Below, in pieces: positions 7,779-44,614 of a stretch of DNA of 51,140 nt. The stretch comes from Candidatus Nomurabacteria bacterium. GTDB lineage: Bacteria > Patescibacteriota > Minisyncoccia > Phycocordibacterales > UBA9973. The first letter of the stretch is position 1, and every line of letters begins with the position of its first letter. Below the pieces are notes generated by a model, which worked only from the letters and a program-made list of their open reading frames with translations, had not been told where the DNA came from and did not search any database. The position numbers and the translations under genes are program-made. The stretch is taken from NCBI GenBank assembly GCA_943359485.1, contig CALRHR010000001.1, forward strand, positions 1-51,140, written 5' to 3'.

Positions 7779-7852
7779 GCGGTCGTAGCTCAACTGGTTA
7801 GAGCGCTTCCCTGTCACGGAAGAGGTTGCCGGTTCAAGTCCGGTCGATCGCG
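7779..7852 (+). tRNA. tRNA-Asp (GTC)
   Basis: 74-nt cloverleaf: acceptor GCGGTCG/CGATCGC, D-stem GCTC/GAGC, anticodon loop CTGTCAC (anticodon GTC), T-arm GCCGG-TTCAAGT-CCGGT, discriminator G. Its last 18 bases plus one are repeated exactly at 8286-8304, on the far side of the GIY-YIG gene. Confidence 0.95.
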
Positions 7853-7853
7853 C
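7835..7853 (+). repeat. Direct repeat, left copy (tRNA-Asp 3' end)
   Basis: CAAGTCCGGTCGATCGCGC, the T-loop, T-stem and acceptor 3' strand of tRNA-Asp. It is identical to 8286-8304. Confidence 0.9.
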
Positions 7854-7886
7854 CGCGTAAAAGGCCATAAGATGGCCTCACGCGGC
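7852..7886 (+). promoter_or_regulatory. Two-tier hairpin after tRNA-Asp
   Basis: GCCGCGT (7852-7858) pairs with ACGCGGC (7880-7886), and inside it GGCCAT pairs with ATGGCC. It begins on the tRNA discriminator base and has only a weak T-tract, so it may be a processing signal or part of the inserted segment. Confidence 0.5.
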
Positions 7887-7916
7887 TTTGCCATGAAGTG
7901 GTAAAGACGAGTGAAC

Positions 7917-7940
7917 AAAAAACACCTGATGGTGTTTTTT
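7917..7940 (+). terminator. Intrinsic terminator
   Basis: AAAAAACACC-TGAT-GGTGTTTTTT is a perfect stem with a T-tract, able to work on both strands. The 23 bases leading into it (7904-7926) recur with one mismatch at 10019-10041 before another terminator. Confidence 0.8.
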
Positions 7941-7950
7941 GTTTTATGCG

Positions 7951-7980
7951 TGTCGCGTAGAACTTGTTCTTTACGCGACA
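7951..7980 (+). repeat. Inverted repeat ahead of the GIY-YIG gene
   Basis: TGTCGCGTA (7951-7959) is complementary to TACGCGACA (7972-7980), with an inner GAAC/GTTC pairing. It ends 17 nt before the GIY-YIG start codon and shares arm sequence with the secD-secF hairpin. Confidence 0.6.
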
Positions 7981-7997
7981 AGTATTACAATTAGTTT

Positions 7998-8282
7998 ATG
8001 TACTATACATACCTTTTAGAAAATCAAAATGACAAAAGCTGGTATATTGGGTATACTTCTGATCTTAAGAAAAGATTAAAAGAACATCAATCTGGTCAAG
8101 GTGGTAAAACTACAAGTAGAGGGAAAATTGCCTTGCAACGTGGCGAAGCTTTACGTTGGAAGTTAATTTATTACGAAGCTTATTTAAATAAAAAAGATGC
8201 GGAAGGAAGAGAAAGATTTCTCAAAAGTGGTTCGGGAAGGAAATACTTAAAGAAGCAATTGGCTAATTACTTAGAAACTTGA
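7998..8282 (+). CDS. GIY-YIG nuclease-domain protein
   Basis: 94 residues, essentially a bare GIY-YIG domain: YTYLLEN (the GIY strand), WYIGYTSDLKKRLKEH (YIG strand and the conserved Arg helix), and a later Glu in EGRERFLKSGSGRKYLKKQL. The family makes single metal-dependent nicks or cuts and includes homing endonucleases and small COG2827-type proteins. Its stop codon lies 3 nt before an exact copy of the tRNA-Asp 3' end, so the gene sits wholly inside a 451-bp segment bounded by 19-bp direct repeats. This suggests a mobile gene, or a nuclease whose cutting led to the insertion. Confidence 0.92.
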   Translation: MYYTYLLENQNDKSWYIGYTSDLKKRLKEHQSGQGGKTTSRGKIALQRGEALRWKLIYYEAYLNKKDAEGRERFLKSGSGRKYLKKQLANYLET

Positions 8283-8285
8283 CCC

Positions 8286-8304
8286 CAAGTCCGGTCGATC
8301 GCGC
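8286..8304 (+). repeat. Direct repeat, right copy (tRNA-Asp 3' end)
   Basis: An exact 19-bp copy of 7835-7853. No tRNA body precedes it, so it is a displaced gene end or a target duplication. Confidence 0.9.
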
Positions 8305-44094: not shown

Positions 44095-44126
44095 ACTAAA
44101 AAGCACCCACTCGGGTGCTTTTTAGT
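44095..44126 (+). terminator. Intrinsic terminator of the ABC operon
   Basis: ACTAAAAAGCACCC-ACTC-GGGTGCTTTTTAGT, a 14-bp perfect stem. It would work on both strands and thus also end the tRNA-Gln transcript. Confidence 0.88.
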
Positions 44127-44210
44127 TCTGAATACCGCTCTCAGCGGGTATGCTATGACTGAATAGTTTGTCCTATGCGTATCAGTCTCACCTGACTTAG
44201 CATAGCACTG

Positions 44211-44281
44211 CTGGGAGACTAGGATTCGAACCTAGATAATATCCTCCAGAGGGATATGTCCTACCATTAGACGATCTCCCA
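44211..44281 (-). tRNA. tRNA-Gln (CTG)
   Basis: On the minus strand: acceptor TGGGAGA/TCTCCCA, D-stem GTCT/GGAC, anticodon stem TATCC/GGATA around CTCTGGA (anticodon CTG), T-arm CTAGG-TTCGAAT-CCTAG, discriminator G. The 5' T and D-arm are typical of tRNA-Gln. GatCAB (gatC and gatA at 5 kb) would amidate it. Its first 15 bases recur at 44600-44614. Confidence 0.92.
44267..44281 (-). repeat. Direct repeat, tRNA-Gln 5' end (in gene)
   Basis: TTAGACGATCTCCCA on the plus strand, i.e. the first 15 bases of tRNA-Gln. Identical to 44600-44614. Confidence 0.8.
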
Positions 44282-44300: not shown

Positions 44301-44543
44301 TTATTTTTGAATCAATTTTTTAAACGCATTACCACCCTTCCAACTCTTTACCTTCTTTTCTCTTTCTCGTGCCTCATTCATAGATGTAAATATTTCTGTA
44401 TGTACTATATTCCATGGCTTGCCTGGTTTTGTGGATTCTACATCTCCTCGATTGTGTCGCGACAATCTCTCTTGAACCCCGATTTCTGTTATCCCTATAT
44501 AATATTTTCCATATTTGTTTTTTAGTATATAAAGATGGGTCAT
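44301..44543 (-). CDS. GIY-YIG nuclease-domain protein
   Basis: 80 residues: LYILKNKYGKYYIGIT contains both halves of the GIY-YIG signature, VQERLSRHNRG the conserved Arg helix, and ARERERKVKSWKGG-type residues (AREREKKVKSWKG) the later Glu and basic helix. It is a bare nuclease domain, like the one at 8 kb but not closely alike in sequence. It lies between tRNA-Gln and a copy of the first 15 bases of that tRNA, in the same orientation as the tRNA. Confidence 0.9.
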   Translation of the reverse strand: MTHLYILKNKYGKYYIGITEIGVQERLSRHNRGDVESTKPGKPWNIVHTEIFTSMNEAREREKKVKSWKGGNAFKKLIQK

Positions 44544-44560: not shown

Positions 44561-44595
44561 CCCCGCCTCGCCTGCTCCCGCGGTGGCTGGCGGGG
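44561..44595. repeat. GC-rich inverted repeat
   Basis: CCCCGCC (44561-44567) and GGCGGGG (44589-44595). This GC-rich patch stands out in an AT-rich setting and sits at the far end of the inserted segment. Confidence 0.6.
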
Positions 44596-44599
44596 CAAG

Positions 44600-44614
44600 T
44601 TAGACGATCTCCCA
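44600..44614 (-). repeat. Direct repeat, displaced tRNA-Gln 5' end
   Basis: Exact 15-bp copy of the tRNA-Gln 5' end, with no tRNA body attached. Confidence 0.8.

Follow-up and report, generated by a model that had tools for sequence, protein, structure and literature searches.

SegB, a free-standing GIY-YIG homing endonuclease of T-even phages, is reported to cut in a tRNA region and to be inherited at high frequency, and a 2026 study associates SegB genes with tRNAs in phages (PMC2988022, PMC13096335). In fungal mitochondria, the so-called mORFs are endonuclease ORFs that lie near the end of a gene, supply a replacement for that end, and leave the native end orphaned downstream; the first such case was Allomyces atp6 (PMC3630166). 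The insertions in rRNA genes of CPR bacteria include GIY-YIG proteins within insertions unlike introns (PMC11270868). A literature search from which most subscription journals and preprints fell outside yielded no paper combining GIY-YIG, a tRNA gene, and Patescibacteria. Here, we analyzed a stretch of 51,140 nt from a Candidatus Nomurabacteria bacterium (GCA_943359485.1, contig CALRHR010000001.1; hereafter, the window), in which a stand-alone GIY-YIG gene adjoins tRNA-Asp. We estimate a probability of about 70% that this segment is one insertion of a widespread set of compact, intronless, homing-like GIY-YIG elements of Patescibacteria, in which the invaded tRNA stays intact and a spare piece of it is left on the far side.

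The segment and its host tRNA comprise the following parts:

7779-7852, plus strand: intact tRNA-Asp(GTC) (Rfam, 68.4 bits; the ARAGORN boundary extends to 7854)
7835-7853, plus strand: first occurrence of the 19-nt tRNA-Asp 3' end, spanning T loop to discriminator + 1 (sequence)
7853-7885, plus strand: left-end hairpin of the element, beginning in the last tRNA-Asp bases (fold; on the minus strand, CCGCGTGA-GGCCAT-CTT-ATGGCC-TTTTACGCGG)
~7914-7943, plus strand: intrinsic terminator within the element leader (sequence and fold)
7951-7980, plus strand: second leader hairpin, TGTCGCGT..ACGCGACA, 5' of the GIY-YIG start codon (fold)
7998-8282, plus strand: stand-alone GIY-YIG nuclease gene, 94 aa (PF01541, E=7e-16)
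8267-8284, plus strand: right end of the element, TTACTTAGAAACTTGACC, overlapping the end of the ORF
8286-8304, plus strand: second copy of the tRNA-Asp 3' end, i.e., the displaced original end (sequence; junction in the kin element L267)

The window holds two copies of the repeated 3' end (CAAGTCCGGTCGATCGCGC) and no more, one at 7835-7853 and the other at 8286-8304, with 19/19 positions identical; chance falls far short of explaining an exact 19-nt match that ends at a tRNA 3' end over so short a span (451 nt). The GIY-YIG gene at 7998-8282 is the sole gene between the two copies, and its TGA ends 3 nt 5' of the second one. The initial annotation had read this arrangement (an exact duplication, a lone GIY-YIG gene stopping 3 nt before the second copy, and two hairpins plus a terminator), and each of these parts was borne out. 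Because the genome has only one tRNA-Asp match, the intact copy is the working gene, which the insertion either preserved or rebuilt. Within the window, a hairpin motif with a GA/TTTT internal loop is confined to the element and not dispersed. There was no Rfam match to a group I intron (RF00028) in the window or in the loci L001 and L003, and tRNA-Asp is uninterrupted, so that a group I intron is ruled out for both elements of the window.

The window protein carries the domain and the catalytic residues of the GIY-YIG nuclease superfamily, the latter (Y5, Y16, G18, R26, H30, and E62) being invariant in alignment A1. Its gene lies outside introns and inteins and is free-standing, as in free-standing homing endonucleases. 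A single-protein scan of genome contigs placed the closest named kin in Ca. Paceibacterota, Taylorbacteria, Nomurabacteria, and similar Patescibacteria, and kin of the protein are located at tRNA-Asp, -Gln, -Met, and -Glu. Nearest among the elements is L267, whose protein shows 74% amino acid identity and which lies at the same tRNA-Met/tRNA-Asp pair. The leaders of L267 and of the window element are 78% identical, and L267 keeps the left-end hairpin (7853-7885), the terminator, and the second leader hairpin. In the protein tree, in which many forks are weakly supported, nearest neighbors lie at different tRNAs (e.g., Val/Thr, Gln/Ser, and Arg/Phe), and other GIY-YIG clades, one of them conserved, are devoid of any tRNA link. 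A search of a phage database for a possible source gave only two weak Listeria phage matches and hence no phage origin.

The insertion junction was sought among relatives of the window, with a comparison set of eleven tRNA-Asp flanks lacking the second copy. The window's own right flank (after 8304) found no alignable empty relative, and a sigma-factor gene used as an anchor for the empty site had no close enough orthologues and gave no junction; the tRNA-Asp junction rests on L267 because the right flank of the window matches no empty relative. At the right end of L267, TTACTTAGAAACTCGACC is followed by a decayed copy of the tRNA-Asp 3' end and then by a terminator, and the element end TTACTTAGAAACTTGACC abuts the tRNA copy with one change, as it also abuts the copy in the ORF-less L129. 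This terminator aligns to the sequence directly 3' of tRNA-Asp in the empty genomes G013 and G015 (scores of 81 and 84; shuffle maximum, 34), whereas the sequence 3' of the intact tRNA in L267 does not match the flanks of empty relatives (score, 15). The native 3' flank thus came to lie beyond the second copy in L267, which is what insertion at the tRNA 3' end would predict, and the segment of the window is an insertion rather than a decayed second tRNA. The initial annotation had called for a search for tRNA-Asp loci without the segment and had named, as the reading that would defeat it, a second piece representing the tail of a decayed tRNA gene. Empty relatives do carry the native terminator directly after tRNA-Asp, and native flanks are displaced both in L267 and, as described below, at a tRNA-Gln promoter, so that the tail of a decayed gene does not describe the second piece. 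Element-bearing and element-free sites with clean junctions are both present among relatives, that of tRNA-Asp being seen via L267.

The genome of the window (G000; 713 kb, 99.8% complete) encodes three stand-alone GIY-YIG genes and one UvrC-type protein, and all three stand-alone genes (3/3) adjoin tRNA genes. The second of them, also in the window, neighbors tRNA-Gln, whose 5' end is duplicated there, and had been overlooked in the initial annotation:

44600-44614, minus strand: orphaned tRNA-Gln 5' end (nt 1-15) with the native promoter before it (sequence comparison)
44561-44599, minus strand: 39-nt hairpin inserted in the D loop of this orphan
44301-44543, minus strand: second GIY-YIG gene (80 aa), which stops 19 nt short of the intact tRNA-Gln
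44210-44281, minus strand: intact tRNA-Gln(CTG), 3' of the second GIY-YIG gene

The conserved promoter region of tRNA-Gln directly precedes the whole tRNA in G005, G006, G012, and G018, i.e., at uninterrupted sites, of which that of G018 is the weakest (5/300 shuffles scored as high). In the genome of the window, this promoter precedes the orphan 5' piece instead (best score, 79 versus G006; shuffle maximum, 42), and the region before the intact tRNA-Gln scores only 33 against it. The second element of the window separates the tRNA-Gln promoter from its gene. Orphan pieces without an ORF follow the same promoter in G003 and G022, and less certainly in G015. Downstream, a conserved AGTGCTATGCTAAGTCAGG..GGACAAACTATTCAGTC stretch lies 3' of different tRNA-Gln genes in two species (window 44100-44209, minus strand; L264, at tRNA-Gln(TTG) of G022), and is possibly a structured RNA or another tRNA-end element.

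The third GIY-YIG gene of this genome is decayed (internal TAA) and lies between an intron-split tRNA (RF00028, 57.4 bits; L002 1098-1408, on contig C11) and tRNA-Ala. Group I introns in or near the anticodon loop split tRNAs in L002, L146 (G017), and L081 (G023), as judged from RF00028 matches in L002 and L081 and from sequence alone in L146; two of these split tRNAs adjoin GIY-YIG genes. A serine recombinase with a 530-aa open frame (G000:C11:19748-20182; L295) is found in the vicinity, at ~1.2 kb from this decayed gene and its intron-split neighbor.

The initial annotation had further asked whether GIY-YIG genes border tRNA fragments more often than chance. A gene counted as linked if a tRNA or tmRNA lay no farther than 400 nt on its upstream side or about 120 nt on its downstream side. 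By this measure, 31 of the 84 stand-alone GIY-YIG genes in 41 genomes of the order, an unbiased sample drawn solely by Pfam, are next to a tRNA or tmRNA. A phylum-wide search with the alignment of tRNA-linked members found matches in 201 of 287 genomes, and 60 of the 89 loci inspected were linked, a sample selected by its query and thus descriptive only. Pooling of both samples gave 91 linked loci out of 173, from genomes that are mostly MAGs and loci that are not phylogenetically independent. Among the 173 loci, tRNA and nuclease gene share the strand in 105 linked pairs and are opposed in 1. By comparison, 3/29 control sigma-factor genes were linked, on mixed strands, and 0/9 UvrC genes had a tRNA within 400 nt. 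Direct repeats across the gene exceeded 20 shuffles in 50/90 tRNA-linked loci versus 5/81 unlinked ones. GIY-YIG genes thus adjoin tRNA genes and fragments far above the controls, and their targets comprise nearly all tRNA isotypes plus tmRNA. The family is not uniform, since ~60% of the GIY-YIG genes of the order are not beside a tRNA. The recurrence beside nearly every kind of tRNA across Patescibacteria points to widespread, undescribed selfish DNA.

Several placements extend this inventory. tmRNA adjoins GIY-YIG genes directly, upstream in L199, L215, L202, L208, and L037 and downstream in L282 and L069. A GIY-YIG gene of the same family lies at 1465-1761 inside a 16S rRNA match in L018 (G033). 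The order tRNA-Gln or tmRNA, leader, GIY-YIG gene also occurs on contigs labeled as an Alphaproteobacteria MAG (L290) and a Sedimentisphaerales MAG (L293), either by transfer or by mis-binning.

We distinguish two arrangements. In type A, represented by the tRNA-Asp element, the intact tRNA comes first and is followed by the leader hairpins, the nuclease gene, the 3' piece of the tRNA, and the native 3' flank. In type B, represented by the tRNA-Gln element, the native promoter comes first, followed by the 5' piece of the tRNA with a loop hairpin, the nuclease gene, and the intact tRNA. In both, an element consists of a single-domain GIY-YIG gene, hairpins, and one end matching the invaded tRNA gene. 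The mirror arrangement (type B), with a duplicated 5' end and a hairpin inside, is commoner than the 3' one. Orphan copies fit their own tRNA better than other isotypes: in type B, 39/60 are above the 95% null (3 expected) and 21/60 above the 99% null, and in type A, only 7/40 loci retain a 3' copy above the 95% null. In 46/60 type B cases, no more than 25 nt separate the stop codon from tRNA nt 1. At the other end, the orphan begins at tRNA nt 1 in 32 type B loci, and most of the orphans end no more than ~20 nt from the start codon. Of these 32 orphans, 27 hold an insert of at least 12 nt, nearly always a 19-84-nt hairpin, placed after nt 9-24 (mostly in the D loop) or 33-36 (anticodon loop). 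Mirror cases exist in type A, with a palindrome in the T loop (L225) or a hairpin in the anticodon loop (L082), and in L281 a perfect 60-nt copy of tRNA-Tyr with a T-loop hairpin precedes the gene. The commonest loop palindrome, CCTGCCTGCCGGCAGGCAGG, is dispersed in 7/10 genomes, with zero matches in reversed controls, and is absent from the genome of the window. As a guess, the orphan hairpins may prevent folding with the intact half or re-cutting.

Inserts of exactly 30 nt in L031, L189, L195, L213, L232, and L287 are each built from a pair of adjoining 15-nt hairpins (stem, 6 bp; loop, 3 nt). Type A leaders share a first helix that pairs with the tRNA CCA end (CCACGAA..TTCATGG or CCGCG..CGCGG), followed by a GC-rich hairpin (L159, L162, L171, L214, L233, L199, L215, and L267-L280); this leader could be an RNA or DNA end signal. 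An Rfam search of type A leaders and cassettes returned only tRNA and tmRNA matches, plus non-credible ones below threshold.

Modules of ~175-198 bp without a GIY-YIG gene, followed by the same 19-nt tRNA-Asp 3' copy, were found in G016, G031, G035, and G040, and in G016 and G035 they form tandem cassettes. The G031 module ends in the 18-nt right end of the window element, which in the window is coding sequence of the nuclease gene; the simplest reading of this module is a deletion derivative. The ORF-less L129 retains the 3' coding end of the GIY-YIG gene. At tRNA-Ala of G064, ORF-less and GIY-bearing units stand in tandem with the same end. Across the order, tRNA-Asp and tRNA-Gln are accompanied by more ORF-less pieces with matching ends than GIY-bearing ones, and duplications may therefore arise without the nuclease in cis.

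These small cassettes bring up an alternative in which a site-specific recombinase acting in trans moves them at the tRNA 3' end, the att core spanning the T loop to the 3' end and the GIY-YIG gene being cargo. The 19-nt repeated core runs over just this interval, the tandem ORF-less arrays of G016 and G035 and the common ends of ORF-less and GIY cassettes at the G064 tRNA-Ala count in its favor, and the genome of the window encodes two serine recombinases. However, it encodes no tyrosine integrase (PF00589) at 99.8% completeness, with 14/14 control genomes positive, which speaks against assigning the elements to integrase-driven tRNA islands. Moreover, type B duplicates the tRNA 5' half, with breaks in D, anticodon, or T loops that one att rule does not cover, the GIY-YIG gene is the one gene recurring across loci, and L129 bears its coding end even without the ORF. 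A tyrosine integrase in trans is disfavored because of its absence from the genome and the existence of type B, and we consider the recombinase explanation as a whole unlikely.

The proteins themselves could instead be host enzymes related to UPF0213 or SLX1 that act on branched or hairpin DNA, with the tRNA pieces as repair scars and the tRNA genes as neutral sites; on this view, frequent breakage or folding of tRNA genes and palindromes would provide the substrate. Repair scars are conceivable because the A1 profile detects not only I-TevI but also UPF0213 proteins and structure-specific SLX1 nucleases, and the strong hairpins set in the tRNA loops of orphan pieces and the ORF-less scars suit them too. 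Strict co-orientation, abutment to tRNA nt 1, patchy presence, close kin at different tRNAs, and unlinked GIY-YIG clades with few repeats nevertheless fit selfish insertion better, and this second alternative seems quite improbable. Decay of tandemly duplicated tRNA genes with chance arrival of a GIY-YIG gene, to which some loci in tRNA clusters with sequence-sharing neighbors lend a semblance, is highly implausible given that native flanks have moved to the far side of the pieces, that co-orientation is 105 to 1, and that the piece is the end predicted by insertion geometry.

Under the preferred reading, insertion of homing-like elements, the nuclease would cut tRNA genes lacking the element, and repair from an element-bearing copy would bring in the element along with a tRNA end by which the gene stays complete. 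Copies would reach tRNA nt 1 or the 3' end because selection would purge insertions that break a single-copy tRNA. In type B, the tRNA's own promoter would drive the nuclease gene, and RNase P would release the tRNA from the nuclease transcript. The homing into a tRNA gene without an intron that the initial annotation had suggested stands as far as the insertion junctions, the tRNA linkage, and the lack of an intron are concerned, but its simple picture is complicated by the ORF-less segments and by the commoner 5' mirror type. A bolder and decidedly tentative proposal is that of a distinct mobile class, in which a minimal GIY-YIG nuclease would recognize a tRNA-like fold of the DNA (cloverleaf or hairpin) instead of a fixed sequence, and would thereby enter many tRNA genes, copy the end of its target each time, and set a genomic palindrome in the loop of the orphan half against re-cutting or misfolding; ORF-less forms, perhaps with the 178-bp repeats of Escherichia coli tyrT, would be non-autonomous relics.

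If the main reading holds, one of the largest bacterial radiations carries an undescribed family of selfish nucleases in its tRNA genes, and an endonuclease colonizes essential single-copy RNA genes by rebuilding them, without an intron or an integrase. There would be a concrete origin for the incomplete tRNA copies and repeated tRNA ends that annotation passes over, and dozens of natural cases (empty, occupied, and ORF-less) would bear on shape versus sequence targeting by GIY-YIG enzymes.

Among known systems, integrative elements at tRNA 3' ends (att sites of tyrosine recombinases) share the direct repeat of the 3' end, the intact tRNA, and tandem arrays, whereas the present elements have no integrase, are shorter than 0.5 kb, and include a mirror type at the 5' end. 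In E. coli MG1655 (L297, 1285800-1288000), 178-bp repeats, each with 19 nt of the tRNA end, follow tRNA-Tyr. By the record annotation, these tyrTV repeats are the long-known rtT/tpr repeats. They resemble the ~195-bp ORF-less tRNA-Asp cassettes in having a 19-nt tRNA 3' end per 178 bp and no integrase gene in between, but they lack a GIY-YIG gene, and no Rfam family in common was reported for the cassettes searched; whether they might be relics of a similar element is worth asking. The rRNA insertions of CPR bacteria occur in the same phyla and include GIY-YIG proteins, yet they reside in rRNA genes and mostly encode LAGLIDADG proteins, with tRNA unmentioned in the main text of that report (PMC11270868). 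SegB is likewise a single GIY-YIG gene that lies outside introns and beside tRNA genes. It is phage-borne, however, and the passages on it in its two sources mention neither partial copies nor rebuilding of a tRNA, nor hairpins in loops (PMC2988022, PMC13096335), whereas the present elements are chromosomal, belong to Patescibacteria, and occupy many tRNA types. With mORFs, they share a replacement gene end joined to the gene and a native end orphaned beyond the ORF, as in type A of L267 and, mirrored, in the type B tRNA-Gln element. mORFs differ in that they inhabit mitochondrial protein genes, are mostly LAGLIDADG (GIY-YIG in one case), and bring diverged foreign ends (PMC3630166); the present elements sit in tRNA genes, their ends match the local tRNA exactly or almost exactly, which sets aside a diverged foreign replacement end here, and their orphans carry hairpins. 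SegB and mORFs are the closest parallels in logic.
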